From: Aquihabitans sp.
GTDB taxonomy: Bacteria; Actinomycetota; Acidimicrobiia; Acidimicrobiales; Iamiaceae
NCBI GenBank assembly: GCA_025353965.1
Contig: JANXNS010000233.1
Coordinates: forward strand, 1 to 35,069
Direction: 5' to 3'
DNA length: 35,069 bases
Positions 1,482-30,780 of the stretch are shown in pieces. The position numbers and the translations under genes are program-made. Each line of letters starts with the position of its first letter. Positions within the stretch are counted from its first letter, which is position 1. The notes under the pieces were generated by a model that was not told where the DNA came from, searched no databases, and was given only the letters and a program-made list of their open reading frames with translations.

Positions 1482-1487
1482 TAGTAT
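1482..1487 (+). promoter_or_regulatory. Candidate -10 element for a leaderless BTAD regulator transcript
   Basis: TAGTAT is followed by 6 nt and then the ATG at 1494. There is no purine-rich Shine-Dalgarno sequence in the gap or just upstream, which fits transcription starting at the ATG. No good -35 is seen. Confidence 0.55.
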
Positions 1488-1493
1488 TTCGAA

Positions 1494-4400
1494 ATGGGCG
1501 AGGGGGAAGGGGCGTGCCGCTTCGGCGTACTCGGGCCCCTCGACGTCACCGACGATGGGGGCGTAAGCGTCCCGCTGCGTTCGCAGCTCCGGCGCCGATT
1601 GCTGGCCATCTTCCTGGCGCAGCCGTTTGAGGACATTCCCGCTGATCGCCTGATCGACCAGCTCTGGTACGACAACCCACCGCTTGGTCGTGGTGCGTTG
1701 CACATTCAGGTGTCGCGACTGCGGCGGGATCTCGCCAGCGCTGGCGCGGTGAGCCCCGTGGTCACGGTGCCCAACGGGTACCGGTTCCAGATTCAGCAGG
1801 AATCGATTGATTGGGTGCGGTTTGTCCGGCAGGTGGAGCGGGCTCGGGATTTGGTGGAGGCCGACCCGCACGCCGGCGTGGCTGCGTACTCGGGGGCACT
1901 GGCGTTGTGGCGCGGCGCCGCGTTCGAAGACACTGTCGGGTGCCCATTGGTGGACGACCAGGCCCGCTACCTCGATGCCTTCCGACGGTCCACGGTTCTG
2001 GCGTGTGCCTCGTTGCTCGGCCGCCTCGGCCGCCACAGTGCGGTCGCAGACCTGCTCGCTCCGGTCCATGGGGAGGAGCCGTTCGATGAATCGGTGAGTT
2101 CGTTGCTCGCTCGGTCGTTGTGTCTGGGTGGTCAGGTTGATCGGGCCCTAGCCGTGGTGGATCGCACGGTAGATGCCTTGCAAGAGGAATTCCGGGCCAG
2201 GCCGTCCGCGGCGTTCGTTCAGTTGGCCGAGGACCTGCGGACGCGTCCGGCCGAGGTGGTCGTCGAGCTGGCCCCAACGGCCCCGCCTCGTGTGGCTCCG
2301 CCACTGGCATTGGCCCTTCCGCTCCCGGCCTCCCGCGGGCCGTTGATCGGCCGGGCCAAGGAGCGACAGGCACTTATTTCGGCGGTGCAAGACGCCGAAG
2401 GCCCAGCGCTCATCGAGATTGTTGGCCCGAGCGGCTACGGGAAGTCGTCGCTGGCGTTGGCGATTGGTCACCAACTTCGCGAGAGCGGTTTGGCCGTGCG
2501 GTTCGGCGTGTGCGCAACGTCTGCGGCCATGCTCGGCAACGGCATCAGATCAATGTTCGCTGATGTGCTCCGGGCCTCGCCGCTGCCGGTGTTCGGTGCG
2601 GGTGACCAGGCAACGGCAGCGGAGATTGCATCGGTCCTTGCGGTCGCGGTGATCGATGGGATGGACGAAGCCGGCGCCGAGGGTTGCGTGGTGTTGGTGG
2701 TCGATGATCTTGGTCTCGCCGACACCGTTGATCGCCTGGCGCTCGAAGCGATTCTCCGGGCGACCGGACGGGAATGGTTCCCGGTGGTCCTGGCCACCAG
2801 TCGATCCTCGCTCACCCTCGAGCGGGTCCCGGTCTGCTCCATTGAACTTGGGCCCGTCTCGGCCTCGGAGATTGAAGCGGTCTTGGGTGATGCCGTGCTC
2901 GCCGCCTCGGTTCACGGGGCAAGCAGCGGAGACCCGCTCACGGTCGGCCATGCCGTCGCTCGGTTGGTGTCGCTGGCCCCGGTGGATCGGGCGGCCGCGT
3001 TCGAAGCACTCGTTGCGGACCCCGGCCGGTTCGGCCTGCGGTACAGCGCTCAGCTCAGCCGGTGCTCGCCCGGGGCCCATGACGTGCTGGCGGGGCTGGC
3101 TGCGGCCGGGACACCGCTGGGGTTGTCGTCGCTTCAGGGGCTGCTCGAGATTGGTGACGAGGCGTTGGCCGTCGCCCTGGTCGACCTCATCGATGAGGGT
3201 CTCGCTATTGAACGAACCGATGGCACGGTGGCCGTCGCCCACGACATTCTTGGCAGCGTGTTCCGGGCCGGGCTTGGTGCCCCTTTTGTGGACGCCGTGC
3301 ACGAACGACTTTTTGCCCTTTCAACCTCTGCTGATCCTTGGGTCCCCGCCCCAGTGTCCGTTGCCCACGTGTCCGATGGTCGCCGCCGGGACCTCCTCAG
3401 CGCGGTTCGCCACGCCATGGACGCCGGCGCCTACGACCAGGCCCTGGCCCTGGGCGAGATGCTGCTTGGCCTGGACCCTGACGATTTCCAGCGACTGGAG
3501 CTCAGCTTGGCCCTCGGCACCTCGCTCATCTGGGTTGGTCGAAACGAGGAATCTCAGGCTCATTTCCAGGAGGCCTATGAGTTGGCCGGTCGGCTTGGTG
3601 ACGAACCGTCGGTGGTTGATGCCGTCCGGGGTTTCCTCGGCGCCTGGAGCGCCGGCGCCGGGCCCACCCCTGAGCAGGCCACGTTTATGGACGAGGCGCT
3701 CTCCGGCGTTCACAGCGCCAGCCCCCGAGCGCATCTGCTGGCGCGGGCAATCAGCCTTCACCTCGGGTTCGACCCTCGGTGCCTGGAGTGGGCGGGCGAA
3801 GCAATGGCGCTGGCTGAACAGGAGCGGGACCCAATCGCGGTAGCGGTAACCACGTCGGCGTTCTCGAACGCCACGCTGGGCCTTTCCGGCGCAGGACGTC
3901 GGTTTCGACTGACCCGTCGCATCGTCCACGCTGCCCCCGCGGACCTCGGCTTCGACCATCTCGCCGCGCTGGTGTCTCATCATTTCGTGGCCGCATGCGA
4001 AATGGGTGAATTGGACGAGGCGCTCTGGTGCGTCGAGCGGCATCGTCTGATCGGCGAGCAAACCGGCCGCCCCCTGCACCGGTGGCGAACTCACGTGTTG
4101 GAGGCCTCGGCGCTCATGATCTGCCGGGAGCCCGATGCCGCTTCGGCAGCCATTGACGCTGCCGCGGACATTGCCCGGCGTCACCGCCTGACCGACGGCC
4201 GCATGACCGAGCTTCTGCAGTGGGCCGTACTCAGTCTCTGGACCGGTCAGTTCGATCCAATCGAGACGGGTTACCGGGGTATCGGCCAGGTGGCTCCTCA
4301 CGTCCTTGCCCACGCGTTGGACGCGGCCATGCTGCACGAGACCGACGAGGAGCGCGCCGTGGTGTCGCTCGCTGCTGCCGTTGAGGGGCTTGGCTCGCTG

Positions 4401-4574
4401 CGACGGGATTACCTGTTCTGGGCGGCAATCGCGGCCACCGCCAATGCGGCGAAGGTCCACGAAGACGAGGCCGCGCTGGCGGCAGCGCGAAAGGCCTGGC
4501 GCGGCGCCGACGTACAGGCGGCGGTACTGGCCATTGGTACGGCGAACCTGCCTATGGACCCACTGCTCCTCTGA
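1494..4574 (+). CDS. BTAD-domain transcriptional regulator with AAA/NACHT-like ATPase core
   Basis: A 1026-residue cytoplasmic regulator of the SARP/AfsR-like type. Residues about 5-100 form an OmpR-type winged helix (FGVLGPLDV ... LHIQVSRLRRDL ... VTVPNGYRF). Residues about 100-250 are the helical bacterial transcriptional activator domain (ALALWRGAAFED, LRTRP). An ATPase module follows, with Walker A GPSGYGKSS near residue 311 and a Walker B-like VVLVVDDL near residue 400. The last 400 residues are alpha-helical and TPR-like. There is no C-terminal LuxR helix-turn-helix, so DNA binding should come from the N-terminus. Family members activate nearby secondary-metabolite or transport genes after sensing a ligand. 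Targets are unknown; the adjacent exporter is one candidate by position only. The start was chosen for the -10 six nt upstream. Confidence 0.88.
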   Translation: MGEGEGACRFGVLGPLDVTDDGGVSVPLRSQLRRRLLAIFLAQPFEDIPADRLIDQLWYDNPPLGRGALHIQVSRLRRDLASAGAVSPVVTVPNGYRFQIQQESIDWVRFVRQVERARDLVEADPHAGVAAYSGALALWRGAAFEDTVGCPLVDDQARYLDAFRRSTVLACASLLGRLGRHSAVADLLAPVHGEEPFDESVSSLLARSLCLGGQVDRALAVVDRTVDALQEEFRARPSAAFVQLAEDLRTRPAEVVVELAPTAPPRVAPPLALALPLPASRGPLIGRAKERQALISAVQDAEGPALIEIVGPSGYGKSSLALAIGHQLRESGLAVRFGVCATSAAMLGNGIRSMFADVLRASPLPVFGAGDQATAAEIASVLAVAVIDGMDEAGAEGCVVLVVDDLGLADTVDRLALEAILRATGREWFPVVLATSRSSLTLERVPVCSIELGPVSASEIEAVLGDAVLAASVHGASSGDPLTVGHAVARLVSLAPVDRAAAFEALVADPGRFGLRYSAQLSRCSPGAHDVLAGLAAAGTPLGLSSLQGLLEIGDEALAVALVDLIDEGLAIERTDGTVAVAHDILGSVFRAGLGAPFVDAVHERLFALSTSADPWVPAPVSVAHVSDGRRRDLLSAVRHAMDAGAYDQALALGEMLLGLDPDDFQRLELSLALGTSLIWVGRNEESQAHFQEAYELAGRLGDEPSVVDAVRGFLGAWSAGAGPTPEQATFMDEALSGVHSASPRAHLLARAISLHLGFDPRCLEWAGEAMALAEQERDPIAVAVTTSAFSNATLGLSGAGRRFRLTRRIVHAAPADLGFDHLAALVSHHFVAACEMGELDEALWCVERHRLIGEQTGRPLHRWRTHVLEASALMICREPDAASAAIDAAADIARRHRLTDGRMTELLQWAVLSLWTGQFDPIETGYRGIGQVAPHVLAHALDAAMLHETDEERAVVSLAAAVEGLGSLRRDYLFWAAIAATANAAKVHEDEAALAAARKAWRGADVQAAVLAIGTANLPMDPLLL

Positions 4575-4631
4575 GTGGTTTGGGGCATTTCCCGAAGCGC
4601 GGAGTCTGACCCGGGGGGTAGCGTTCGGCGA

Positions 4632-4650: not shown

Positions 4651-4663
4651 GGGAGAGAGAACC

Positions 4664-6508: not shown

Positions 6509-8158
6509 TCATTTGTTGCGGGCCAGGACTACCACCAATGCGTCGTCTTGAAGGCGTCCCTTTGCATGGTTTCGAGCGGCGTCGACCGCCGTGGCCGCGA
6601 TCACGTCCGGGGGTCGGTCGATCACCGTCTCGAGCAAATGGATAAACGCTTGATCGCCGAGCATGGATCGGTCCGGGGCGCGGGCCTCTATGAACCCGTC
6701 GGTGTACACAATCAGTAGATCGCCCGGGTCGAGCTGCTCGATGTCGGGGCTGAACGAGGGGGAGTCGACACCGAATATTGGGCGGGTCCTGGTCCACTCC
6801 GCAAACCCGTGAGTTCGGTGAACGAGCGGGGGCGGATGGCCTGCGTTGACGACGAACGCTCGGCCCGTGCCGGTGTCGAGGTCGACCAGCACACCGCTGG
6901 CTATAGACCCTTGCGAGCCGACCGTGTGATCAAGGGCATTGGCGATCTGGTCAATGGGGGCCGCCTCGTGCCAGAGGGCTTCGATCACACCGCGTAGTTG
7001 ATAGGCCAGCAGGGCAGGAACGGCGCCGTGTCCGGCGACATCAAGGACTGCGATCAGGAGGTGTCCGTCGTCTCGGCCGACCACTTGGTGTGAATCGCCA
7101 GCGAGCTGGCCAAACGCGCCCTCCTGGGCAACGGCGATAGTCCAGCCGTCAACCTGGACGGGGGCGGTGAACAGGTGGCTCGCAATTTGGTCGGTTAGCT
7201 CGTCTCGCTCGGTCAGGCTCTCGCGCAACTGGCGGGCCGTGCGGATGGCGTCGTTTGCAACCCGTTCGAACCGCTCGATGCCAGCGATCGGTATCAGAAC
7301 CAAGGCTCCCAGCGACGCGACCTGGACGACGGCGACGATTGATTGCGCCAGCCGGGCGTCCGGCAGAAGCCGATTGAGGGTGGCGGCCAGCGCGGCCAAG
7401 GCTAGGGGAGCGACCACCGCAACGGCGATGAGTCGGCGTCCCAAACGCCCGGCTGGGCCGGCATCGGTGAGCTGCGCTGTTACGCCGACCTCGGGCCCGA
7501 TGAGCACGGCGCTGAGCCCGAGCAGCAGAATTCCGACGGCCGTATGCAGCGCCATGCCCACGGTCACCAGCGAACCACCCAACTGCGCCCGGTCCACGCC
7601 AAGTGCGTAGCCAATGGTTGCGGCCATACCGACGGTGGCCGCACCGAGCCCGAGCCCTTGAGCAACCTTGGGCGCCCGACCCGACGCGAGCAGCGCGATG
7701 GCCAGGCCGATCAGCACAAAGGAGATGCAGGTTTCGGCCACGGGCCGCCCTGGAACGGGCGTCGTTGCCGGTACAAATGGATCGTCGGGCCAGAGCCCCT
7801 CCAACCACGTTGGCCCTGCGCCCGCTATGTGTAGCCCAAGGCTTACCGCGCCAGGTACACAGACCAGGACGCCGCCACCGACAGCGGCGGGCTTCCAAGT
7901 GCTGGACCCCTGAGCTACCAGAAGCAAGGAGAACCCTGCGACGGCGAGCCCGATTGCCGCATTTGGGTACATCGGTGGAAGCGATGGCCAGATCTGCACC
8001 ACCACCGAACGTCGCAGTACGTAACCGGCCAGGACCGCCACCCCAAGCAACGCGGCGACCGCTGCGAAGGCCACGCCGATGGCCTTGAGCCAGGCAGTCA
8101 ACGGCAGAAGGCGGATCGGCCGATCAGGATTGAAAGGGCCTGCGATTGTCTCCGTCAT
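6509..8158 (-). CDS. Membrane-anchored PP2C/SpoIIE-type serine phosphatase
   Basis: A 549-residue phosphatase expected to dephosphorylate an anti-anti-sigma (STAS) protein in a partner switch. Residues about 20-295 contain roughly eight hydrophobic segments, probably a membrane sensor. A short linker (about 296-330) precedes the SpoIIE/PP2C domain. Metal-binding motifs are present: AGDSH (Asp355), LDVAGHG (Asp373), NAGHPPPL near 440, YTDGFIEAR near 487 and DDALVVVLA near 537, so it should be active. The start overlaps the sigma-factor stop by 4 bp (ATGA), making it the last gene of the operon. No STAS gene is present in the window, so its direct substrate must be encoded elsewhere. Confidence 0.9.
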   Translation of the reverse strand: MTETIAGPFNPDRPIRLLPLTAWLKAIGVAFAAVAALLGVAVLAGYVLRRSVVVQIWPSLPPMYPNAAIGLAVAGFSLLLVAQGSSTWKPAAVGGGVLVCVPGAVSLGLHIAGAGPTWLEGLWPDDPFVPATTPVPGRPVAETCISFVLIGLAIALLASGRAPKVAQGLGLGAATVGMAATIGYALGVDRAQLGGSLVTVGMALHTAVGILLLGLSAVLIGPEVGVTAQLTDAGPAGRLGRRLIAVAVVAPLALAALAATLNRLLPDARLAQSIVAVVQVASLGALVLIPIAGIERFERVANDAIRTARQLRESLTERDELTDQIASHLFTAPVQVDGWTIAVAQEGAFGQLAGDSHQVVGRDDGHLLIAVLDVAGHGAVPALLAYQLRGVIEALWHEAAPIDQIANALDHTVGSQGSIASGVLVDLDTGTGRAFVVNAGHPPPLVHRTHGFAEWTRTRPIFGVDSPSFSPDIEQLDPGDLLIVYTDGFIEARAPDRSMLGDQAFIHLLETVIDRPPDVIAATAVDAARNHAKGRLQDDALVVVLARNK

Positions 8159-8901
8159 TGGGCCCCAGCCCGTTTGCGAAGCTCACGCAGAGCCTGCCGT
8201 AGAAGGCGCGAGACGTGCACCTGGCTCATGCCAACCTGCTCGGCAATCTCGGATTGATTCAGGTCTTCGAAGAATCGCAGGTACACGATGGTCCGGTCCC
8301 GCTCCGGGAGGCTCTCCAGAAGTTGGGTGAGCATCACCCCCTCATCGGGGGCAAGGTCGGTTTCGTGGTGATTGCGGGTCACCGAGTGCGCTACCGCGCT
8401 TGCGCCTTCGACCGTGTCGGCCGACGTTGTGCGGTAAGCGGCGCCTGCTTCCATGCCACTCAGAACTTGGTCCACGGTGATGCCAAGTTCGGACGCAATC
8501 TCGCTAGGGGTCGGCGCCTTGCCGGTTTCGATGCTGAGCCGGGTTATGGCCGCCGGCAACTGGACGTGGAGGTCCTTGGCGCTACGCGGTACCTTGACGG
8601 CCCAGGTGGCGTCGCGGAAGTGCCGGCGAAGCTCACCGGTGATGGTTGGTACGGCGAACCCCGCGAACGGCACGCCAAAGCGCGGATCGAAGCGCTCGAC
8701 CGCCTTGAGCAGACCGAGCATGGCCACCTGCTCGAGATCGTCTAGTGGTTCACCTTTGTTGGCAAAGCGGCGTGCACACGCCTCAGCCAATGAGCGAGTG
8801 TCGACCAGGATCTGGTTGCGGATCTGTCGGTCGCCGGTGTCGCGGTACTGGATGAAGCGGGCTGTGAGCTCGGCCGAGTCTTCTTTGCGCTCGGTCGGCA
8901 T
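8155..8901 (-). CDS. SigB/SigF-family alternative sigma factor
   Basis: A 248-residue group 3 sigma factor that would direct RNA polymerase to stress or developmental promoters. Region 2 is clear (EPLDDLEQVAMLGLLKAVERFDP, FAVPTITGELRRHFRD; around residues 50-100), followed by region 3 (PTPSEIASELGITVDQVL) and region 4 with its helix-turn-helix (LPERDRTIVYLRFFEDL, QSEIAEQVGMSQVHVSRLL). The TITGELRRHFRD block is typical of SigB/F/G. It sits 4 bp after an RsbW-like gene and overlaps a phosphatase gene, the usual gene order of partner-switching loci. Its activity is therefore likely controlled by sequestration. The exact regulon is unknown. Confidence 0.93.
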   Translation of the reverse strand: MPTERKEDSAELTARFIQYRDTGDRQIRNQILVDTRSLAEACARRFANKGEPLDDLEQVAMLGLLKAVERFDPRFGVPFAGFAVPTITGELRRHFRDATWAVKVPRSAKDLHVQLPAAITRLSIETGKAPTPSEIASELGITVDQVLSGMEAGAAYRTTSADTVEGASAVAHSVTRNHHETDLAPDEGVMLTQLLESLPERDRTIVYLRFFEDLNQSEIAEQVGMSQVHVSRLLRQALRELRKRAGAQ

Positions 8902-8905
8902 TGGG

Positions 8906-9313
8906 TCACCTACCGCCAGCGGCGCTGTGCGCTGGTATCAGGGATCGTTCGAGCCAGGCCCGTGCATACCCGTCCGCCACCGTGATGGCGTAGTCGTCCG
9001 AGACCACCGAGAGAATTTGGCGGGAGAACACGAACCGGTCCTCGTCGATGGCGAGCACGGCGGTGGGCACCTGCGCATCTATGCGGATGCCCTTGCCCGT
9101 GTCCACCCGAATCTCCAGCACGAGGTCCTCACCATTGCTGGCATCGGCCAGCGCGGTGCAGAGTTCGTCGACGCCAATGCGAAGGTCATCGATGACTTCG
9201 ATATCGAACCCAGCCATGGTTGCGAGACCACCGGTCGCCAGCCGCACGGACCGGAAATAATGATTGTCAGCGGGAATGGTGATGGTCACGACGGGACTTG
9301 GCGACACGCTCAT
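8906..9313 (-). CDS. RsbW-like anti-sigma protein with degenerate ATP-binding site
   Basis: A 135-residue GHKL-fold protein, first gene of the sigma operon and presumed to bind the sigma factor encoded 4 bp downstream. The start is supported by GGGAGGA about 8 nt upstream. The expected N-box is recognisable (DLRIGVDELCTAL, residues 43-55), but the Mg-binding Asn is replaced by Ala54, and no DxGxG box is seen later in the protein. In active RsbW kinases the motif reads E-x-x-x-N. This protein may bind sigma without phosphorylating a partner, or use ATP differently. Divergent relatives of this sort may be common beside actinobacterial SigB genes. The family call is good; the kinase role is doubtful. 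Confidence 0.78.
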   Translation of the reverse strand: MSVSPSPVVTITIPADNHYFRSVRLATGGLATMAGFDIEVIDDLRIGVDELCTALADASNGEDLVLEIRVDTGKGIRIDAQVPTAVLAIDEDRFVFSRQILSVVSDDYAITVADGYARAWLERSLIPAHSAAGGR

Positions 9314-9552: not shown

Positions 9553-12069
9553 GTGCTGGCACCGAGCTCGCTTCGCCAGAACCGTTCAGGGCAGGGTCGG
9601 GTCGACCAGACTGTCGGCGTGGTTGCTGCGACTCGGGAAGCGGGTGCGTTGGCCCCGGAGGTTGAGCTGGTTCGGGCCGACGACGATTTGTTGTCGGGGC
9701 CCGCCTGGGGGCGTCACCCAACCGATGTGGTGCGGCTCGCCCTAGCGGCGTTGACCTTGTTGGCCACGACGGCGCTGGCCTTGCGCCACGCCACCGAGGT
9801 CCGGTCGGTCTCGGTGGATCTGGTCGACCTCGTGAACCAGCTCCCGCGCTGGATCCGAGATGTGGTTCTGGGCACCACCCAGCTGGTTGCGGTGGCCGTG
9901 CCCATCGTCCTGGTCGTCGTTCTGCTGCGCCGTCCGAGGTTGCTAGCCACGGCCGTCGGCGCCGCAATCATGGCGGCGGGGCTGATGGCCTCTTTGCAAG
10001 GGCGGCTGGACGACGCGGTGCCGAACCGGGTGGTCCTGGTGACCGAGCGTCGCTCGTGGCTCACGGGCGCGGCGTTCCCTTCGGGCGCTTACTTGGCGGC
10101 ATTCACCGCTTCGATAATCGTGCTTGGCCCGGTTCTGGCGCGAGGTTGGCGTCGGGTCGCAGGTGTGGGGCTGGCCATCGCCGTGTTGAGCCGGGTGGTC
10201 ACGGCGGTGGCCGTGCCGTTGAACCTGGCCGTCACCCTCGCCGTGGGGTCGGTGGTGGGTTCGGCCGCGTTGGTGCTGATTGGTTCTCCTCGCCGCCGAG
10301 CTAGCCGCCGTGCCGTGCTGGAGGGCTTGGCCACGGCCGGTTTCACGGCGGTGCGCATCGAGGCCGACGAGGTGGGTGCGGCCCATGCCCGCACGTTCCG
10401 GGCCACAACCGCAACCGGCCAGCAGGCCTTCGTGAAACTGCTGGGCCGCGACGAACGGGATGCCTACCTGATCCTGCGAATCCTCAAACAACTCCGCGTA
10501 AAGGATCTCGATGACATCAGGCCGAGCTGGTCGCCTGGCGAGTTGGTAGAGCACGAGACGCTCTCGGTCTTGCTGGCGGATCGGGCGGGGACGGTGGTTC
10601 CCGCGGTGGTGGCGGCGGGTACGACCAGAGGTGGCGATGGGCTGTTGGCCCTGGAAGTGGTTCCCGGCACGCGGATCGAAAACCTGGAGTGCGATCAGCT
10701 GACCGACGCCGTCCTCGACCGGATCTGGGCGCAAGTCGGCTTGCTTCATGGTCAGGGCATCGCTCACCGTTGGCTCACGGCACACCATGTGTTGCTGGCC
10801 GAGGCGATGGACGCCAACGAATCGGGGGCGTCGACGGTCACATTGGTGGACTTCCGCTGGGCGGCCCGCCAGGCGGAGCCGCAGGTCTTGGCGGCCGACA
10901 TCGCGATGCTGGTGACCAGCTTGGCGCTCATCGTCGGCGCAGAGCGCTCGGTCGATGCGGCGGCGCGGGCGTTGGACACCGATCAGATGGTGCGGGCGCT
11001 TCCGCTGGTCCAGCCGCTGGCCATGCCGGAGGACGTCCGGGCTGGCATTGGCGGCCAAAATCATGTGCTCCCAGCGGTGCGCAGCCGCCTCCAAGCTGCG
11101 GCGGGCGGCGTGCCTTACCAATTGGCGGACATCGAGCGGGTGAGCTTTCAGCAGATCGTTGCCCTGGCCGGCGGGGTGGTCATGGTGTATAGCCTGTTGT
11201 CGTTTGCCTCGAGCTGGTCCGAGATTTCGCGGGCACTGGCCGTGGTATCGCTGTGGTCTCTACCCGGGTTGGTTGCCTTGGCGGCGGTGCCGTACGTGGC
11301 GGGGGCGGCGACGTTCGCTTCGGTGGTTCCCCAGCGGCTGCCGTTCTTTGAAGTGGTGCGGCTGATGGTGGGGCAGTCGTTCCTGAACCGGTTCACGCCC
11401 GCCAACTCCGGTGGTATGGCCTTGCGAGTTCGCTACGTGCAGAAACGCGGTGGAGACCTGGGCGGGGCGGCGGCCGCGGTTGGGCTCACCAGTGTGGCGA
11501 GCGGGATTGCCCAGGTGGCCATCTTGGGATTGTTTGCGGTCTGGGCGGGGTCGTCGGCGGGCGGCCTCCGGTTCTCGCTGCCGGAAGCGAGCACCGCGGC
11601 CGTGGTGTTGGCGGGTGCGGCCGTCATCACTGGCTTGGTCTGGTTCACGCCATGGGGACGACGGGTGGTGGCCCGGCGGATCGAGACCAGCATGCGCCAG
11701 GTGTGGGCGACGCTGCGGCGCCTGGCCCGCCAGCCCGCCCGATTTGTCACCCTGTTCGCCACGACCTTTGTGTCGAAGCTCGCCATGGTCGCGGCCTTCA
11801 CCGAGAGCAGCCGAGCGGTTGACATTTCCTTGTCGTTCCCGAAGCTTGGGCTCCTCTACCTCACCGCGTCGTCCTTGGCCTCAGCGGCGCCGACGCCCGG
11901 CGGGGTTGGTGCGGTGGAGGCCGCGCTCACCGCGGCGCTGACCGGCGCCGGTATTCCGGTGACCGATGCCCTTTCGGCCGTCTTTCTCTTCCGCCTGGTC
12001 ACCTACTGGCTCCCGGTGCCCTTTGGCTGGTGGTCGCTCCGGCGGTTGCAGCGCACGGTCCTGGCCTGA
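9553..12069 (+). CDS. Tripartite membrane protein: PAP2-like, kinase-like and lysyl-PG-synthase TM (flippase) domains
   Basis: An 838-residue protein with three parts. Residues about 55-240 hold several membrane segments with a PAP2-like remnant (AFPSGAYLAAF, then VLSRVV) in which the catalytic His of the SGH motif is replaced. Residues about 250-530 resemble a RIO/aminoglycoside-kinase fold: FVKLLGRD as the ATP-Lys strand, HRWLTAHHVLL where HRDLxxxNVLL is expected, and TLVDFRWA for the DFG region. The catalytic loop lacks the Asp and Asn, so it is probably a pseudokinase. Residues about 540-838 are the lysylphosphatidylglycerol synthase TM domain (UPF0104), with NRFTPANSGG and AAPTPGGVGAVEA. 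Such domains move or bind lipid-linked substrates. The GTG start is uncertain; a GTG at 9619 is possible. Confidence 0.82.
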   Translation: MLAPSSLRQNRSGQGRVDQTVGVVAATREAGALAPEVELVRADDDLLSGPAWGRHPTDVVRLALAALTLLATTALALRHATEVRSVSVDLVDLVNQLPRWIRDVVLGTTQLVAVAVPIVLVVVLLRRPRLLATAVGAAIMAAGLMASLQGRLDDAVPNRVVLVTERRSWLTGAAFPSGAYLAAFTASIIVLGPVLARGWRRVAGVGLAIAVLSRVVTAVAVPLNLAVTLAVGSVVGSAALVLIGSPRRRASRRAVLEGLATAGFTAVRIEADEVGAAHARTFRATTATGQQAFVKLLGRDERDAYLILRILKQLRVKDLDDIRPSWSPGELVEHETLSVLLADRAGTVVPAVVAAGTTRGGDGLLALEVVPGTRIENLECDQLTDAVLDRIWAQVGLLHGQGIAHRWLTAHHVLLAEAMDANESGASTVTLVDFRWAARQAEPQVLAADIAMLVTSLALIVGAERSVDAAARALDTDQMVRALPLVQPLAMPEDVRAGIGGQNHVLPAVRSRLQAAAGGVPYQLADIERVSFQQIVALAGGVVMVYSLLSFASSWSEISRALAVVSLWSLPGLVALAAVPYVAGAATFASVVPQRLPFFEVVRLMVGQSFLNRFTPANSGGMALRVRYVQKRGGDLGGAAAAVGLTSVASGIAQVAILGLFAVWAGSSAGGLRFSLPEASTAAVVLAGAAVITGLVWFTPWGRRVVARRIETSMRQVWATLRRLARQPARFVTLFATTFVSKLAMVAAFTESSRAVDISLSFPKLGLLYLTASSLASAAPTPGGVGAVEAALTAALTGAGIPVTDALSAVFLFRLVTYWLPVPFGWWSLRRLQRTVLA

Positions 12070-13811: not shown

Positions 13812-13817
13812 AGGTTA
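13812..13817 (-). promoter_or_regulatory. Candidate -10 for a leaderless transcript (156-residue protein)
   Basis: On the minus strand TAACCT, then 6 nt, then the ATG ending at 13805. No Shine-Dalgarno sequence is visible. Confidence 0.55.
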
Positions 13818-14735: not shown

Positions 14736-14742
14736 CGGGAGC

Positions 14743-14748
14743 ACTCTA
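14743..14748 (-). promoter_or_regulatory. Candidate -10 for leaderless prmA
   Basis: TAGAGT on the minus strand, 7 nt before the prmA ATG; no Shine-Dalgarno sequence. Confidence 0.55.
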
Positions 14749-14856
14749 GGAGACCGCCGACGACTCCTTGTGGCCGGTGGGCAGCCAAGCCATGGCTGGC
14801 GACTGGCGAGTTGGTTGCTGCTGCAAGGAACGGGATTCAGCTCGGCGTCCGCTGGG

Positions 14857-14862
14857 TACGGT
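14857..14862 (+). promoter_or_regulatory. Candidate -10 for the second RsbW-like gene
   Basis: TACGGT lies 9 nt before the ATG at 14872, predicting a leader of only 0-3 nt. Confidence 0.4.
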
Positions 14863-14871
14863 CCCAAACGC

Positions 14872-16878: not shown

Positions 16879-16884
16879 TACGGT
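16879..16884 (+). promoter_or_regulatory. Candidate -10 for the zinc-ribbon gene
   Basis: TACGGT, 9 nt before the ATG at 16894. The gap also contains AAGGAG, so this start may use either a very short leader or a Shine-Dalgarno sequence. Confidence 0.35.
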
Positions 16885-16893: not shown

Positions 16894-17175
16894 ATGTTTC
16901 GTCGTCCCCGCTTCTGGCAAAACTCGCACTGGCGGAGGGTGCTCTCGCCGGACAGCAACCTGGCTGAGGCGGAGGGGTTGGCGGCCGGAACGGGTCTCCT
17001 CACCGGTGAGATCGCGCGGGGCGCGGAGATGGCCAAGTTGCCCTGCCCCGAATGCAACGGTGTGGGCGACGTCGTGGTCATTGACCTCGTCGCCCTCATA
17101 GTGAGCCGGCGCTGCCAAGTGTGCGGGCATCGGTGGAATACGGACGCACTGGCCCGTAGTACTTCGCGTCGCTGA
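16894..17175 (+). CDS. Small zinc-ribbon protein of unknown function
   Basis: A 93-residue basic protein. Two Cys pairs 20 residues apart (Cys51-PE-Cys54 and Cys74-QV-Cys77, the latter followed by GHRW) form a typical zinc ribbon. The N-terminus is rich in Arg and Trp, and the middle is a short helix. Such proteins may bind nucleic acid or a protein partner. The cysteine layout is seen directly; any role is unknown. It lies between the sulfatase and the convergent EamA transporter gene, 26 bp from the latter's stop. Confidence 0.75.
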   Translation: MFRRPRFWQNSHWRRVLSPDSNLAEAEGLAAGTGLLTGEIARGAEMAKLPCPECNGVGDVVVIDLVALIVSRRCQVCGHRWNTDALARSTSRR

Positions 17176-18095: not shown

Positions 18096-18104
18096 GGGCC
18101 GGTG

Positions 18105-18110
18105 ACGGTA
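18105..18110 (-). promoter_or_regulatory. Candidate -10 for the EamA gene
   Basis: TACCGT on the minus strand, 9 nt before the ATG ending at 18095. Confidence 0.4.
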
Positions 18111-18170
18111 TCGCCGGGTGGACCAGCCGGTCCAACAGGTTGACCTCTTCTTGGTCGCCTGGACGGCCGC

Positions 18171-18176
18171 TACCGT
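18171..18176 (+). promoter_or_regulatory. Candidate -10 for a leaderless oxygenase transcript
   Basis: TACCGT, 7 nt before the ATG at 18184; no Shine-Dalgarno sequence in the gap. Confidence 0.55.
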
Positions 18177-18183
18177 TGGGCTC

Positions 18184-19155
18184 ATGGCCGACGAGATACT
18201 CGAAGTGGACCTTCTTGCCTTCGAAACGGGCGATGCCGCCGCTCACCGTGCCGTGGTCGACGGGCTCATTCAGTCGCTTCGCAATGGCTTCGTTTACGTC
18301 AGCCACGATGTGAGCGCAGACCTGATCGACACGGCCTACGGCATGCTCGAGCAGTTCTTCACCCTCCCCGCCGAGACCAAGACCAAGTTCGTCGCCCCCG
18401 GCACCCATGGCCAGACGGGTTACACCGGGCTGCTGGTGGAGACGGCCGCCTCCGCCGAGGTGGCCGACTGGAAGGAGATGCTCAACTGGGCCAATGACGT
18501 GCCGGACGGGCATCCGTTGCGTACCCGCTACCCGCACCGCTATCACAGCCAGGTCCTGCCCGAGGCGGCCGTGCCCGGGATTTCTGAGGTGCTCAACCGC
18601 TTCAACGACGCCATCTTCGACCTTCAGCGCCGCATTCTGCGGATCATCGCCACCGGGATCGGCGCCCACGAGTCGTACTTTGAGAAAATGCTGGTCGATG
18701 GGTCCACGCTCAGCCGGGCGATCCACTATCCGGCCATGGCGTCGGCCCCCGATGCCCCCCATGTGTGGGCGGGCGAACATGCCGACATCAACCTGATCAC
18801 CGCACTTCCGAGGGCAACCGCGCCAGGCCTTCAGGTGAAACTCAAAGAGGAGGGCACCTGGATAGATGCCGTGGCTGAAGGCAGGCAGGCAATCATCAAC
18901 ACCGGCCTGATGCTGGAGGTGATCACCAACGGCACCATCGCCCCGGGGATCCATCGGGTGGTGGCCGCCCCGAACCAGCCGGGGGATCGGTACTCGGTGG
19001 TCCAGTTCTGTCACCCCACGCCGTGGATGATCCTCGCCCCAGCGGTTTCGTGCGTCACCCCCGAAACGCCTCAGCGCTTTGCCCCGATCGCGGCAGCCGA
19101 CGCGTTGGATCTGGTGCTCTACGAGATCAACCTGATCGAAGAATCCCGCACTTGA
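18184..19155 (+). CDS. Iron(II)/2-oxoglutarate-dependent oxygenase (isopenicillin-N-synthase-like)
   Basis: A 323-residue cytoplasmic oxygenase. The N-terminal DIOX_N region (VDLLAFETGD ... GFVYVSHDV ... LEQFFTLPAETKTKF) leads to the double-stranded beta-helix. The iron ligands are His199 and Asp201 (EHADIN) plus His257 (PGIHRVV). Arg269 and Ser271 (RYSVVQF) form the RxS motif that binds 2-oxoglutarate or a substrate carboxylate. The family includes hydroxylases, desaturases and ring-forming enzymes, so the reaction is open. The divergent transporter might move its substrate or product, but that is only a neighbourhood guess. Confidence 0.9.
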   Translation: MADEILEVDLLAFETGDAAAHRAVVDGLIQSLRNGFVYVSHDVSADLIDTAYGMLEQFFTLPAETKTKFVAPGTHGQTGYTGLLVETAASAEVADWKEMLNWANDVPDGHPLRTRYPHRYHSQVLPEAAVPGISEVLNRFNDAIFDLQRRILRIIATGIGAHESYFEKMLVDGSTLSRAIHYPAMASAPDAPHVWAGEHADINLITALPRATAPGLQVKLKEEGTWIDAVAEGRQAIINTGLMLEVITNGTIAPGIHRVVAAPNQPGDRYSVVQFCHPTPWMILAPAVSCVTPETPQRFAPIAAADALDLVLYEINLIEESRT

Positions 19156-19888: not shown

Positions 19889-19894
19889 AACCTA
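19889..19894 (-). promoter_or_regulatory. Candidate -10 for a leaderless crotonase transcript
   Basis: TAGGTT on the minus strand, 6 nt before the ATG ending at 19882. It sits in the 22-nt gap after the protease gene. Confidence 0.5.
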
Positions 19895-19904: not shown

Positions 19905-21053
19905 TTAGGCCCGGGCCGCAGCGAGGTGGGCTTTGCGGAGTTCCAGCGTGCGGAACAGCGCTGAGGCGTCGACCGTCCCAACGATGGTGCCGTCCTGATC
20001 GACGACCAGGCCGTCGCGCACGTCGCCCCCGTCGATCTTTTGCACGGCGGGCAAGAGCGGGTCGTCCGATCGAACCACGGTGATGCGCGTCAACGGGTAG
20101 GCCAGATCGGCCACCCTCAGGCTGTCCCATTGGTGGTCCGGGACGGCTCGGATGGCGGCTGCAGTGAGTAGGCCCACCACCGTTCCCTGCTCGGACAGGA
20201 CAGGGTAGGACTGATGCGTCGTTCCCGGCGGGAGCGAGCGCAAAAAGTTGCCCACTGTGCCCACCGCAGTGGCCGTTGGTGGGGCCGGTGACATGGCATC
20301 TCGAACGGTGCTGCCATCGAGCAATTCGTAGAGCGGGACGGACCGGATGCTGCGCAAGGCGGCGAACAACACGAAGGCCCCAACCAACAGCAACGAGTAG
20401 CCGTTCACCGTGTTCGTTCCGTTACCCCGAATGACCTTGAGGCCAAGGAACACGAGGGCAGCGCCGCCAACCAGGCCCGATCGCGCTGCCCACTTCATGC
20501 CGGTTGCCTGGCTGCCGGTCCGGCTCCAGATGAGCGACGACAACACCGTGCCGCCATCGAGCGGTGCGGCCGGCAGCAGGTTGAATACGGCTAGGACAAC
20601 GTTGAGGTAGCCCAGGATGTAGAAGAGCACGCCGATCAGGCCGGGGATCCCACCGCTTGGCAGCGCGTAGGAACTGGCCAGGAAGGCCACCCCGCAGGCG
20701 GCGCTGGCGATCGGGCCAATGACGGCAATGCGGAACTCTGACCGGGCAGTGGTGGGTGCCGATTCAAGTTTGGCCACGCCCCCCAGAAGCCACAGGCTGA
20801 TACCCCGCACGCCAATACCTTCATCCCGGGCCACCAAGGCGTGGCCCATCTCGTGGACGAGCAGGGAGACGAAGAACAGCAAGGCTCCCGCCACACCCGT
20901 GACCCAATAGGCCGTGGTGGACAGACCTGGCGCGCCGATGGGGAACTGATTCGTGGCCAGGAAATGGGTGTAGAAGCCCGCCACCAACACCACGGTGAGG
21001 TCCATATCGACCTTGATGCCGGCGATCCGGCCGAGGGGGATGTCCTTGCCCAT
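19905..21053 (-). CDS. Site-2 protease family metalloprotease with CBS domains
   Basis: A 382-residue intramembrane zinc protease of the M50 family (Rip3-like). Zinc ligands are His67 and His71 with Glu68 in VHEMGH, plus Asp166 in NLLPAAPLDGG. About six membrane segments span residues 15-230. The cytoplasmic C-terminal third (about 240-375) contains a pair of CBS-like repeats (VRDAMSPAPPT ... VGLLTAAAIRAV; VVDQDGTIVGTVDASAL), which often sense nucleotides. Family members cut transmembrane anti-sigma factors or other membrane proteins to relay envelope stress. No substrate is adjacent. Confidence 0.92.
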   Translation of the reverse strand: MGKDIPLGRIAGIKVDMDLTVVLVAGFYTHFLATNQFPIGAPGLSTTAYWVTGVAGALLFFVSLLVHEMGHALVARDEGIGVRGISLWLLGGVAKLESAPTTARSEFRIAVIGPIASAACGVAFLASSYALPSGGIPGLIGVLFYILGYLNVVLAVFNLLPAAPLDGGTVLSSLIWSRTGSQATGMKWAARSGLVGGAALVFLGLKVIRGNGTNTVNGYSLLLVGAFVLFAALRSIRSVPLYELLDGSTVRDAMSPAPPTATAVGTVGNFLRSLPPGTTHQSYPVLSEQGTVVGLLTAAAIRAVPDHQWDSLRVADLAYPLTRITVVRSDDPLLPAVQKIDGGDVRDGLVVDQDGTIVGTVDASALFRTLELRKAHLAAARA

Positions 21054-21059
21054 TCGGCC

Positions 21060-21065
21060 ACGTTA
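21060..21065 (-). promoter_or_regulatory. Candidate -10 for a leaderless site-2 protease transcript
   Basis: TAACGT on the minus strand, 6 nt before the ATG ending at 21053. Confidence 0.55.
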
Positions 21066-21110
21066 CCGGTGACCCTGGCCACCGGGCTCTCCTATCCGCG
21101 AACGGGTCGA

Positions 21111-21116
21111 TAGCTT
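21111..21116 (+). promoter_or_regulatory. Candidate -10 for a leaderless LLM oxidoreductase transcript
   Basis: TAGCTT, 7 nt before the ATG at 21124. It is divergent from the protease -10 at 21060-21065, both within a 70-bp gap. Confidence 0.55.
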
Positions 21117-21123
21117 CACCGCT

Positions 21124-22029
21124 ATGGACATCGGGAAGTACGGCATTTGGACCTTCAATCTGGACCTCGTGCCATCGGCACAGTCGGTGGAGCACGTTTG
21201 CGAACTCGACGAGTTGGGGTTCGGGGCCGTCTGGGTCCCCGAGGCGTTCGGTCGCGAGGCGTTTACGGGTGCGGCCCTGTTGCTGCGAGGCGGCACCGAC
21301 ATCGTGGTGGCCACCGGTATTGCATCAATCTGGGGTCGAGACGCGATGGCCGCCGGCGCCGCCCATCGCACCCTGGCCGAGGCATACCCGGACCGCTTCC
21401 TGCTCGGTCTCGGGGTAAGCCATCAACCCATGGTGGAGGGAGTGCGCGGCCACGATTACTCGAAGCCGTTCTCGGCCATGTCGAGCTACCTCGATGGCAT
21501 GGACACGGCCCCGTTCCTGGCCGCGCCGGCATCCACCGAACTCCAGCGCGTGCTGGCTGCCCTTGGGCCCAAAATGTTGGGTTTGGCCCGAGATCGCGCC
21601 GCCGGAGCCCACCCCTATTTCGTGCCGCCGGAACACACCGTTCGGGCCCGAGCGACGCTCGGGCAAGGCCCGCTCCTAGCCGTGGAGCAAGCCGTGGTGT
21701 TCGAGACAGACCCGGCCCGGGCCCGCGAAGTTGCCCGCACCCACACCCGCATCTATACCGGCCTCCCCAACTACGTGAACAACCTTCGCAAACTGGACCC
21801 GACGCTCACCGAGGAAGATTTTGCCCACGGTGGGAGCGACCGATTGGTGGACCGGATTGTGGCGTGGGGAACCATGGACACGGTGCTGGCCCGGGTTCAG
21901 GCTCACCTCGATGCCGGCGCAGATCACGTCTGTATGCAAGTGATCGAAGACTCGCTGGATGTGCCGGTGGGTGCCTGGCGAGACATCTCATCGGCACTCG
22001 GGCTCACCGCCGTGGGGGTCAGCCAATGA
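21124..22029 (+). CDS. LLM-class F420-dependent oxidoreductase
   Basis: A 301-residue luciferase-like monooxygenase-fold protein. Features are the N-terminal beta strand GKYGIWTF, LDELGFGAVWVPEAFGREAF, IVVATGIASIWGRD, YPDRFLLGLGVSH and the late AHLDAGADHVCMQV. These match the actinobacterial F420-using subgroup rather than flavin luciferases. Such enzymes reduce or oxidise small organic substrates with cofactor F420; the specific reaction cannot be predicted. The stop codon overlaps the start of the 80-residue zinc-binding protein (ATGA), so the two may be co-produced. Confidence 0.88.
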   Translation: MDIGKYGIWTFNLDLVPSAQSVEHVCELDELGFGAVWVPEAFGREAFTGAALLLRGGTDIVVATGIASIWGRDAMAAGAAHRTLAEAYPDRFLLGLGVSHQPMVEGVRGHDYSKPFSAMSSYLDGMDTAPFLAAPASTELQRVLAALGPKMLGLARDRAAGAHPYFVPPEHTVRARATLGQGPLLAVEQAVVFETDPARAREVARTHTRIYTGLPNYVNNLRKLDPTLTEEDFAHGGSDRLVDRIVAWGTMDTVLARVQAHLDAGADHVCMQVIEDSLDVPVGAWRDISSALGLTAVGVSQ

Positions 22030-23299: not shown

Positions 23300-23305
23300 A
23301 CCTTA
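23300..23305 (-). promoter_or_regulatory. Candidate -10 for the NMO-like gene
   Basis: TAAGGT on the minus strand, 8 nt before the ATG ending at 23291. It lies just outside the large palindrome. Confidence 0.5.
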
Positions 23306-24927: not shown

Positions 24928-24933
24928 TAGGGT
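24928..24933 (+). promoter_or_regulatory. Candidate -10 (with possible -35) for leaderless sbcD
   Basis: TAGGGT, 7 nt before the ATG at 24941. TTGACT at 24907-24912, 15 nt upstream, is a possible -35, the best -35 seen among the leaderless candidates. Confidence 0.6.
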
Positions 24934-28501: not shown

Positions 28502-29352
28502 CCGGCGGGTTCGGTCACAAAGTCAATCAACTGCTCGACTGCGCCGATCAGTGCGGGCTCCAGGTCGGTCCAGATGTTCACCTTGCCCAGCAGGTGTTTC
28601 CAGAATCGGCCAGGTTCGCCATCCACATTCAGTCGGGTCAGCACGCCGGTCTTCCAGTCCTCGCCCCGAGGCACGTCCGGCCAAGCCCCGATGCCTAGTA
28701 CCGATGGTTTCACGGCCTGCCAAATGTCTATGTAGGGATGGCCGGTCACCAACACGTCAGGGTGGCGAACGGCCGAAGCAATGCGCGTTTCCTTGGACCC
28801 GTCCACCAGATGATCGAGCAAAATGCCCAGCCGTCGACCGGGCTTGGGCGCAAATGAACGGACGACGTCGTCCAGGTGGTCGGCGCCATCGAGGCGTTCG
28901 ACCACCACCCCTTCCACCCGGAGGTCATCACCCCAGACCTTCTCCACCAGCTCAGCATCGTGGATGCCTTCCACCAGGATGCGGCTGGCTTTGGCGATTT
29001 GGGCACGGGCCCGCGGTACGGCAATAGACCCGGAGGCGGTCCGTCCAACGGGGGCGGCCAGTGTTCCCGGGGCCGGACCGCGAGGTTCCACCAGGGTCAC
29101 GATCTGTCCGTCCACCTCGAACCCGCCGGTCAACAGGCGCATCCGGTGTTCGTAACCATGTGGATCGCGGACTTGCAGAACCCCGTTCACCACGCCGACC
29201 ACGAACCCACTAATGGGCGTACCCCGCTGCTTGATCAGTAGTCCGGGCTGCGCCGGAACCACCCGATAGCGAAGGCGAGGGTTCTTCGGGCCATCCAGAT
29301 CGATCGGCTCTCCGATCCCTTTGGCGACGCGACGCGGTGGGGAGACGGCCAT
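28495..29352 (-). CDS. DUF3097 family protein
   Basis: A 285-residue protein matching the actinobacterial DUF3097 family by its characteristic stretches: VEGIHDAELVEKVWGDDLR, GRRLGILLDHLVDGSKE, VLVTGHPYIDIWQAVKP and AWPDVPRGEDWKTGV. The N-terminal third (about 15-90) looks like a small beta domain. The H-D-A-E-L and DHLVDGSKE blocks are reminiscent of Toprim-like nucleic-acid enzymes, but that is my impression only. Its function is not established. It lies between SbcCD and MurA, with its own -10 six nt before the ATG. The neighbours hint at DNA or cell-cycle housekeeping, no more. Confidence 0.9.
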   Translation of the reverse strand: MAVSPPRRVAKGIGEPIDLDGPKNPRLRYRVVPAQPGLLIKQRGTPISGFVVGVVNGVLQVRDPHGYEHRMRLLTGGFEVDGQIVTLVEPRGPAPGTLAAPVGRTASGSIAVPRARAQIAKASRILVEGIHDAELVEKVWGDDLRVEGVVVERLDGADHLDDVVRSFAPKPGRRLGILLDHLVDGSKETRIASAVRHPDVLVTGHPYIDIWQAVKPSVLGIGAWPDVPRGEDWKTGVLTRLNVDGEPGRFWKHLLGKVNIWTDLEPALIGAVEQLIDFVTEPAGA

Positions 29353-29358
29353 GTGCAG

Positions 29359-29364
29359 AGGCTA
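29359..29364 (-). promoter_or_regulatory. Candidate -10 for leaderless DUF3097
   Basis: TAGCCT on the minus strand, 6 nt before the ATG ending at 29352. Confidence 0.55.
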
Positions 29365-29404
29365 CGAGCAGCACCGGCCCGCGGTGGTGACCGCCGGTGG
29401 CGCG

Positions 29405-29410
29405 TACCCT
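29405..29410 (+). promoter_or_regulatory. Candidate -10 for leaderless murA
   Basis: TACCCT, 7 nt before the ATG at 29418. It faces the DUF3097 -10, both within a 65-bp gap. Confidence 0.55.
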
Positions 29411-29417
29411 TGCCGGC

Positions 29418-30728
29418 ATGTCCGCACGCGCTTGGTCGGTTGCCCCCTCTGGTCCGCTCCGAGGTGATGTGTTTGTCCGAGGTTCCAAGAACGCTGTGAC
29501 CAAGCACATGGTTGCCGCCATTTTGGGCGAGGGACCGAGCGTGATCCGGCGGGTCCCCGAGGTCGGCGATGTCGCCATCACCACCGACATTCTGCGGTCA
29601 CTCGGGGTGGCCGTGGATCACGATGTTGCCGCCGGTGTGATCACGGTCGAACCCCACGAAGGGGTAACGACTGAGGTGTCCACCTCGTTTAGCGGTCTGA
29701 ATCGCATCCCGATCCTGCTGCTCGGACCGTTGCTGCATCGCACCGGAGAAGCCTTCGTGCCCATGGTGGGCGGCGATCCCATTGGTCGCCGTCCGGTGGA
29801 CTTCCACATCGATGCCCTCCGGGCGTTAGGTGCCGAGATCGAGGTCCGTGACAATGGTATTGCCGCCAAGGCCACTCGGCTCAAGGGTGCGCGGATCGAG
29901 TTGCCTTACCCCAGCGTCGGCGCAACCGAGACAGTGCTGCTGAGCGCCACGCTGGCTGAGGGCCGAACCGTGCTGCGCAATGCGGCCACCGAGCCTGAGG
30001 TCATCGAGTTGGCGCTGTTCTTGCAGCGGATGGGCGCTCGGATCGAGATGTCTCCCGGCCGCAAAATCACCATTGACGGGGTCACGTCACTGAAGGGGGC
30101 GCAGACCACGCTGTCGGGCGACCGCAACGAAGCTTTCAGCTACTTGGTGGCCGGCCTGGTGACCGGGGGAGAGGTTCGGGTCCACAACTGCCCGCAGGAC
30201 CGCATCGTCACCGCGATCACCACGCTCAACCGCATGGGCGCCCGGTTCGACATCACCGACGAATACATCCAGGCCTCGGCGCCAGATGGCCTGAAGCCAG
30301 CGGCGGTGCAAACCGATACACACCCCGGGTTCATGACGGATTGGCAGACGCCGCTCGTGGTGCTGTTTACCCAGGCCGACGGCATGTCGGTCCTCCATGA
30401 GACCGTCTACGAAGATCGGCTGGTCTACGTGCCCGCGCTCAAGCAGATGGGGGCAGAAATTGAACTTTTCTCCACGTGCCTCGGTGGCGAGTCCTGCCGT
30501 TTCCATGACACCAATGCGGTGCACTCCGCCATCGTGAAGGGCGTGTCGAAGCTTCGCGGTGCCGAGGTCGACGTGCCCGATGTGCGCGCTGGATTTTCCT
30601 CCGTGATTGCTGCGGCGATCGCCGATGGACCCTCCACCATCACTGGTATTCACCACCTTGAACGGGGTTACCACCGTCCGGCTGAGCAGTTCGCTGAGCT
30701 GGGCCTGCCCATCACCCCGGTCGCGTAG
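29418..30728 (+). CDS. murA: UDP-N-acetylglucosamine 1-carboxyvinyltransferase
   Basis: A 436-residue enolpyruvyl transferase catalysing the first committed step of peptidoglycan synthesis (transfer of enolpyruvate from PEP to UDP-GlcNAc). The substrate-binding GSKNA lies near the N-terminus, NRIPILLLGPLL carries the conserved Arg, and HLERGYHR lies near the end. The active-site loop reads VGGDPIGRRPVD: Asp120 takes the place of the Cys115 of E. coli MurA. The same Cys-to-Asp change is known in mycobacterial MurA and causes fosfomycin insensitivity. The Met at 29418 was chosen over 29397 because of the -10 seven nt upstream. A related non-essential paralogue cannot be excluded. Confidence 0.9.
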   Translation: MSARAWSVAPSGPLRGDVFVRGSKNAVTKHMVAAILGEGPSVIRRVPEVGDVAITTDILRSLGVAVDHDVAAGVITVEPHEGVTTEVSTSFSGLNRIPILLLGPLLHRTGEAFVPMVGGDPIGRRPVDFHIDALRALGAEIEVRDNGIAAKATRLKGARIELPYPSVGATETVLLSATLAEGRTVLRNAATEPEVIELALFLQRMGARIEMSPGRKITIDGVTSLKGAQTTLSGDRNEAFSYLVAGLVTGGEVRVHNCPQDRIVTAITTLNRMGARFDITDEYIQASAPDGLKPAAVQTDTHPGFMTDWQTPLVVLFTQADGMSVLHETVYEDRLVYVPALKQMGAEIELFSTCLGGESCRFHDTNAVHSAIVKGVSKLRGAEVDVPDVRAGFSSVIAAAIADGPSTITGIHHLERGYHRPAEQFAELGLPITPVA

Positions 30729-30765
30729 ACGGCCGGTCGCCTCGTTGGCGGGGGGCTGCCACCTC

Positions 30766-30771
30766 TAGCGT
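30766..30771 (+). promoter_or_regulatory. Candidate -10 for the ABC-F gene
   Basis: TAGCGT, 9 nt before the ATG at 30781. The 52-bp gap after murA holds no strong terminator, so read-through from murA is also possible. Confidence 0.4.
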
Positions 30772-30780
30772 AGGTCGGCC

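Follow-up and report, generated by a model that had tools for sequence, protein, structure and literature searches.

Genes that lack a leader and carry a -10-like hexamer directly before the start codon are known from mycobacteria, streptomycetes and other actinobacteria. In the parts of the published texts drawn on here, Zheng et al. (2011, PMC3160421) describe a TANNNT sequence that begins about 12 bp ahead of the start and occurs in almost every actinobacterial genome, a motif whose middle is little informative in high-GC genomes, and changes of initiation mode between orthologues that grow with distance. For M. tuberculosis, Cortes et al. (2013, PMC3898074) report TANNNT without a conserved -35 element, preceded by S-R-N in 49% of cases, with about a quarter of the genes with a primary start site being leaderless. 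In mycobacteria, a leaderless start worked with ATG or GTG but with neither TTG nor CTG (Shell et al. 2015, PMC4633059), and GeneMarkS-2 (Lomsadze et al. 2018, as cited in PMC9581028) places Actinobacteria as a clade with many leaderless genes. The division into leaderless and Shine-Dalgarno (SD) genes is thus already described for Actinobacteria (PMC3160421, PMC3898074). Here we analyse a stretch of 35,069 nucleotides from Aquihabitans sp. (Acidimicrobiia, Acidimicrobiales, Iamiaceae; assembly GCA_025353965.1, contig JANXNS010000233.1, positions 1 to 35,069), referred to as the window, in which an earlier sequence-only reading had listed fifteen TANNNT sites shortly before start codons. Leaderless expression of the genes bearing this motif is, with high confidence, the best explanation of the evidence given below. 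The layout is not new in kind, and the traits named above from Zheng et al. (2011, PMC3160421) for TA-led actinobacterial genes were found alike here. The main text of that study does not include Acidimicrobium, whereas the lineage considered here comprises Iamiaceae and other Acidimicrobiales.

Throughout, the gap is the number of nucleotides between the last base of TANNNT and the start codon. Genes were called by codon statistics and start-codon type, with a caller blind to the sequence upstream of the start, in the window and in 469 kb of the same genome (40 stretches; in total 504 kb of 3.18 Mb). The caller was seeded by third-position GC for the sake of the high-GC relatives, which left the profile of the window's genome unchanged. 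It yielded 489 genes in this sample (G000), of which the 457 with 60 nt of upstream sequence were analysed. Samples of 400 kb each were taken from three relatives, one of the same genus (G003, which matches Aquihabitans sp. G128, NZ_CP077604.1; Acidimicrobiia, Acidimicrobiales, Iamiaceae), one of the same family (G014) and one of the same order (G028). The pool of four genomes held 1461 genes, 257 with the motif at gaps 6-9 and 1204 without it. With N left out of account, the G000 sample had a GC content of 65%; that of G003 had 73%, though both carry the same genus label.

The sequence-only reading had named a sharp peak at this distance, in a plot of TANNNT position upstream of the predicted starts, as a result that would support its claim, and such a peak was obtained at gaps 6-9, with its lower edge at 6. 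The motif counts at gaps 0 to 11 were 0, 0, 3, 1, 1, 0, 39, 18, 14, 11, 4 and 1, so that 82 of the 457 genes carried it at gaps 6-9, whereas gaps 0-5 gave 5 matches and gaps 11-25 gave 13. In the intergenic space of the four genomes, the motif density at gap 6 reached 107 per 1000 positions between divergent neighbours and 76 between same-strand neighbours; at gaps 0-5, and again at 11-25, it stayed at about 1-3 per 1000. When the motif was reversed, no peak appeared at gaps 6-9, either in the window's genome or in the intergenic space of the four genomes. Starts placed just behind an in-frame TAG or TAA, or picked for their nearness to the motif, could produce a similar picture, the more so as most motif matches begin with TAG or TAA (such as 25 of the 39 at gap 6) and two of the gaps, 6 and 9, keep the reading frame. 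However, the caller does not see the upstream sequence, TA[CT]NNT, which contains no stop codon, peaks at gaps 6-9 on its own, there are peaks also at gaps 7 and 8, which are out of frame, and TA[AG]NNT at the other in-frame gaps (0, 3, 12, 15, 18 and 21) was limited to 0-2 genes each per genome. In-frame stop codons therefore do not explain the peak. Consistently, E. coli K-12 passed through the same pipeline gave no TANNNT peak (3 of 159 class-listed genes at gaps 6-9), while its SD peak was normal. The chance that the peak is an artefact of start choice is, in our judgement, negligible.

The motif was commoner at the starts of transcription units than inside operons. Genes were classed as first in a unit, intermediate (with a same-strand gene 26-79 nt upstream) or operon-internal. 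In the four genomes, 174 of 828 first, 57 of 231 intermediate and 26 of 402 operon-internal genes carried it (56/225, 16/77 and 10/144 in the window's genome). When an alternative ATG or GTG within 30 codons was allowed, 84 of the 225 first genes of the window's genome had the motif at gaps 6-9, and only 10 had it in each of the control ranges, 14-17 and 20-23; the same relaxed count gave 42/215 for G003, 64/206 for G014 and 62/182 for G028. A leaderless-type promoter thus stands before a quarter of the first genes of the window's genome on the strict count, and a third is a fair estimate. This distribution also bears on the view that TANNNT is a translation signal, either a TA-rich enhancer or a ribosome-binding site, lying in a longer leader. 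Its fixed position relative to the start codon is what a ribosome-binding site would show. Internal genes, however, need translation signals too, and the motif is about three times rarer there; the anti-SD sequence CCTCCTTTC is intact in four relatives (the search of the window's own assembly found no 16S gene), and identical hexamers are seen again 26-49 nt before starts, at 101 sites of which 52 precede genes with an SD core. A translation signal is accordingly a very improbable reading.

The composition of the motif and the start codons behind it agree with promoters placed for leaderless transcription. The three middle bases of the leaderless-type hexamers were rich in GC, with an AT fraction of 0.08-0.17 depending on the genome versus 0.23-0.36 in intergenic DNA, and 153 of 240 took the form TASSST (S being G or C). 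S-R-N preceded the motif in 121 of 257 genes, and CGN in 73 of 257 versus 14% in controls. No motif gene began with TTG (0/257 versus 38/1204 of the others, p = 0.0009; miscalls may be more frequent among TTG starts than among others), and ATG was used by 169 of 257 as compared with 584 of 1204. The lack of TTG is expected if only ATG and GTG work at a 5' end, as reported by Shell et al. (2015, PMC4633059), whose evidence came from reporters and ribosome profiling, whereas ours consists of start-codon counts. The absence of a conserved -35 element, S-R-N before about half of the motifs, the use of CGN in the same place and the share of leaderless genes are alike in M. tuberculosis (Cortes et al. 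2013, PMC3898074), where start sites were measured, while those discussed here are deduced from sequence. The claim that the motif acts as a -10 element for transcription beginning at the start codon is supported by its position, the TTG-free starts and the conservation among orthologues described below. TANNNT, mostly as TASSST, would be the -10 element read by the housekeeping RNA polymerase holoenzyme. Since the motif has the position required of a -10 element for such a start, transcription would begin on the first base of the ATG or GTG, or no more than about three bases away from it. The ribosome would then begin at the 5'-terminal AUG or GUG of a leaderless mRNA, without SD pairing.

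All fifteen sites listed by the sequence-only reading were present in the window at the gaps given for them, as read directly from the sequence. They are given below, followed by one candidate variant from outside that list.

1482..1487, plus strand: TAGTAT, gap 6 before ATG 1494, BTAD/AAA transcriptional regulator; the start is that of the blind caller; no relatives in the loci searched.
13812..13817, minus strand: TAACCT, gap 6 before ATG 13805, protein of 156 aa with no Pfam match; congener with TAGGGT at gap 8 (1/1).
14743..14748, minus strand: TAGAGT, gap 7 before ATG 14735, PrmA-like methyltransferase; congener with TAGCCT at gap 7 before the aligned GTG (1/1); blind caller start GTG 14744.
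14857..14862, plus strand: TACGGT, gap 9 before ATG 14872, HATPase_c_2 protein; motif in 2/3 relatives.
16879..16884, plus strand: TACGGT, gap 9 before ATG 16894, open reading frame of 93 aa; ambiguous (AAGGAG in the gap); congener with TATCTT at gap 8 (1/1).
18105..18110, minus strand: TACCGT, gap 9 before ATG 18095, EamA-type transporter; motif in 0/1 distant homologue.
18171..18176, plus strand: TACCGT, gap 7 before ATG 18184, 2OG-Fe(II) oxygenase; motif in 1/2 relatives (congener with TAGCGT at gap 7; locus L141 without); blind caller start GTG 18118.
19889..19894, minus strand: TAGGTT, gap 6 before ATG 19882, enoyl-CoA hydratase family; motif in 7/7 distinct relatives.
21060..21065, minus strand: TAACGT, gap 6 before ATG 21053, M50 protease with CBS domain; motif in 6/12 relatives.
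21111..21116, plus strand: TAGCTT, gap 7 before ATG 21124, luciferase-like monooxygenase; congener with TAGGTT at gap 7 (1/1).
23300..23305, minus strand: TAAGGT, gap 8 before ATG 23291, nitronate monooxygenase; motif in 0/1 distant homologue.
24928..24933, plus strand: TAGGGT, gap 7 before ATG 24941, SbcD-like nuclease; TTGACT 15 nt upstream; motif in 0/4 distant relatives.
29359..29364, minus strand: TAGCCT, gap 6 before ATG 29352, DUF3097 protein; motif in 67/79 distinct relatives (gap 5-10).
29405..29410, plus strand: TACCCT, gap 7 before ATG 29418, EPSP synthase (aroA); motif in 8/8 distinct relatives; blind caller start GTG 29469.
30766..30771, plus strand: TAGCGT, gap 9 before ATG 30781, ABC-F ATPase; motif in 17/25 distinct relatives.
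9607..9612, plus strand: CAGACT, candidate -10 variant, gap 6 before GTG 9619, lysylphosphatidylglycerol synthase TM protein; outside the earlier list; no relative covers the N-terminus.

The blind caller placed 29 genes in the window, 28 of them with 60 nt upstream. Eleven of these 28 had the motif at gaps 6-9, and none had it at gaps 0-5 or at gaps 10-41. The base frequencies of the window give one match in 191 per offset, and a binomial probability of 5e-12 for 11 of 28, in agreement with the statement that the sites are far above chance. The caller differed from the earlier reading at three starts: it chose 14744, 18118 and 29469, where the reading had 14735, 18184 and 29418. The alignment of relatives backed the starts at 18184 (2/2, one with the motif) and 29418 (8/8). 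The 93-aa frame at 16894 was not called and had no Pfam match. Four divergent pairs carried the motif on both sides (14735-14872, 18095-18184, 21053-21124 and 29352-29418), and in three of them only 65-88 bp separate the starts, a distance at which two polymerases could hardly bind simultaneously. In the four genomes, the motif was present on both sides in 47 of 248 divergent pairs, against about 35 expected under independence. Elsewhere in the window, genes for a SpoIIE-type phosphatase, a sigma-70 family factor (8155-8901) and a 135-aa protein with no Pfam match follow one another within 6509-9313, and the anti-sigma-like HATPase_c_2 protein (14872-15261) lies some 6 kb from this row. Together these genes look like a partner-switching stress module.

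The peak was present in all three relatives, with the motif at gaps 6-9 in 51 of 340 genes of G003, 71 of 362 of G014 and 54 of 329 of G028. In 62 further loci, mostly from acidimicrobial and actinobacterial metagenome-assembled genomes (MAGs), it stood at gaps 6-9 before 99 of 386 first genes and at gaps 14-17 before 2 of 386; in 16 loci of the Frankia, Streptomyces, Kitasatospora and Nonomuraea kinds, the corresponding counts were 23 and 0 of 153. These named loci were found via DUF3097, share one neighbourhood and are not independent of one another; the DUF3097 genes themselves (16 in one locus set and 59 in the other) were left out of the counts by coordinates. The presence of the motif was also inherited gene by gene. 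The window's genome and G003 shared 49 reciprocal-best pairs, and among the 26 with aligned N-termini the motif was found in both members of 11 pairs, in neither of 11, only in G003 in 3 and only in G000 in 1 (Fisher p = 0.0005). With G014, 15 of 39 pairs could be aligned; 4 had the motif in both members, 10 in neither, and 1 was discordant. Relatives of the DUF3097 gene carried the motif in 22 of 23 collection genomes, 44 of 54 named MAGs and 1 of 2 Actinomycetes. In most motif-bearing relatives of the DUF3097 and aroA genes, the gap drifted within 6-9 and the TANNNT core was kept. Conversely, for the window genes without the motif it was found in 0 of 6 relatives of 33806, 0 of 3 of 26110, 0 of 2 of 12091, and 0 of 1 each of 12654, 22026 and 32664.

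It had further been proposed that the two initiation modes are sorted by gene. A gene family is not bound to one mode: the sulfatase 15307 and the aminotransferase 24786 are of SD type here and of motif type in G003 (motif in 1/3 and 1/4 relatives, respectively). In the aminotransferase orthologues of loci L072, L134 and L069, TACGGT stands at gap 6, 27 or 33. In two of these loci, from two more genomes of the genus (L134, and L069 of G007), it was kept 27 and 33 nt before an SD-preceded GTG. The hexamer is retained while the gap changes, which suggests that the start of the gene has moved and the promoter has not. The aminotransferase orthologues are a natural example of a switch between leaderless-type and SD-type starts.

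The presence of two initiation modes within one genome was supported. The SD core was defined as GGAG, GAGG or AGGA at positions -16 to -5. The statement that most motif-less genes possess a strong SD sequence held only in part: 416 of the 1204 motif-less genes had an SD core, compared with 111 of 1204 in a control window, but about two thirds showed neither signal under these strict criteria. One of the SD examples put forward, 6297, turned out to be a 64-aa open reading frame that the blind caller does not call. A clean division into leaderless genes and genes with a strong SD was not observed in the four genomes, and the group with neither signal must consist of misplaced starts, SD sites of lesser strength and variants of the -10 element. 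One such variant, CANNNT, occurred at gaps 6-7 in 59 of 1461 genes, versus about 15 expected, often as CAGACT, CACACT or CAGGAT; TANNNT alone therefore undercounts the candidate leaderless genes.

Farther upstream, the density of TANNNT rose to about 3.5-6.6 per 1000 positions at gaps 26-39 and was 2.0-2.5 beyond gap 60. The low zone at gaps 11-25 held 28 matches in 15,656 positions, compared with 101 in 22,491 at gaps 26-49 (nominal p = 6e-6). These 101 sites have the same hexamers, and 52 of them precede genes with an SD core. Both the rise in density and the SD genes behind it indicate that a similar -10 element serves leadered genes from farther off; placed at a gap of 26 or more, it would give rise to leadered mRNAs, about half of them with an SD core. 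A separate -10 type for leaderless genes was considered and rejected, as the leading hexamers were the same at gaps 26-49, and both modes are treated as one promoter type because these hexamers are common to both positions. The middle bases of the distant hexamers were somewhat richer in A/T (0.23 versus 0.14 in the leaderless set).

Several observations weigh against leaderless expression from these promoters. The -35 element is at most faint. TTG at a spacer of 16-19 preceded 14 of 258 motif genes versus 105 of 3690 control positions (p = 0.035), and the best match to TTGAC averaged 2.30 versus 2.16-2.26 in shifted controls; matches of at least 4 bases showed no excess (15 versus 9-17 in controls). 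The promoter identity thus rests on the -10 element and its position. An initiator beginning from a pyrimidine at -1 was rejected, since such a base was only slightly commoner in motif genes than in SD genes (179/257 versus 256/416, p = 0.04; C at -1, 0.63 versus 0.57). The near-exclusion of the SD core, present in 1 of 257 motif genes, was discarded as evidence as well, being largely forced because the motif itself fills -16 to -5. SD-like words within the gap were not depleted (8 observed, 6.6 expected), and in the window an SD-like AAGGAG directly precedes ATG 16894. The motif also occurs before operon-internal genes, 26 of 402 in the four genomes and 31 of 180 in the named loci. Before the removal of DUF3097, the named loci held 35 such genes, all 4-25 nt behind their neighbour, and ten of them were one gene family repeated across loci, 9-25 nt behind the neighbour. 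Some of these internal genes are therefore probably misclassed. In the more distant G028, 6 of 19 pairs were aligned, with the motif in both members of none, in neither of 4, and 2 discordant. It was missing from the relatives of SbcD (4/4), of nitronate monooxygenase (1/1) and of the EamA transporter (1/1). In the SbcD relatives, TAG or TGA shortly before the start suggests that an upstream gene may lie there.

The motif could, finally, mark promoters of an alternative sigma factor that controls a special regulon, and not a general promoter type. The lack of a clear -35 element and the sigma-70 family factor encoded at 8155-8901 are compatible with this possibility. On the other hand, the window genes served are diverse and of housekeeping type (aroA, the PrmA-like methyltransferase, ABC-F and the M50 protease), about a fifth of the first genes in the four genomes carry the motif (174/828), and TANNNT without a conserved -35 element was reported at 73% of the primary start sites of M. 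tuberculosis (Cortes et al. 2013, PMC3898074). We therefore consider a special regulon very unlikely, and infer leaderless transcription by the housekeeping sigma factor, with ribosome entry at the 5' terminus.

The promoter-associated proteins of the lineage were also inspected. A search for RbpA (PF13397) in 21 genomes from the genus, family and order gave no match; the window's genome was among them, and there none was obtained at E up to 10 either. By comparison, 9 of 80 genomes sampled from the whole phylum had it. In this respect the 21 genomes differ from mycobacteria, in which RbpA is present and helps weak promoters to open. CarD/TRCF domains were found in 21 of 21 genomes, mostly as one Mfd-sized and one shorter, CarD-sized frame. 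Promoters with hardly any -35 element thus occur in Acidimicrobiales together with CarD-type domains and no detectable RbpA. Beyond leaderless expression as such, we offer a tentative and rather doubtful extension, in which the start codon and the promoter of Acidimicrobiia would evolve as a locked unit. Selection would act against leader lengths of about 4 to 18 nt, as the valley at gaps 11-25 may indicate, and the mode could change only by a jump, for example when the start moves downstream and an SD is gained, a course to which the aminotransferase orthologues point. The promoters concerned would be of TASSST or CANNNT type and almost devoid of a -35 element, in cells with CarD-type proteins and no detectable RbpA.

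No start-site map for Acidimicrobiia was among the literature matches listed, which included PMC10783764 (in part) and left subscription journals mostly outside. The present data document the known actinobacterial gene layout for Acidimicrobiia, an environmental class. The -10 motif is usable for checking start codons in such genomes; in the window alone, three starts chosen without regard to it would shift if checked in this way. The comparison with relatives provides a test bed for the switching between leaderless and SD initiation.

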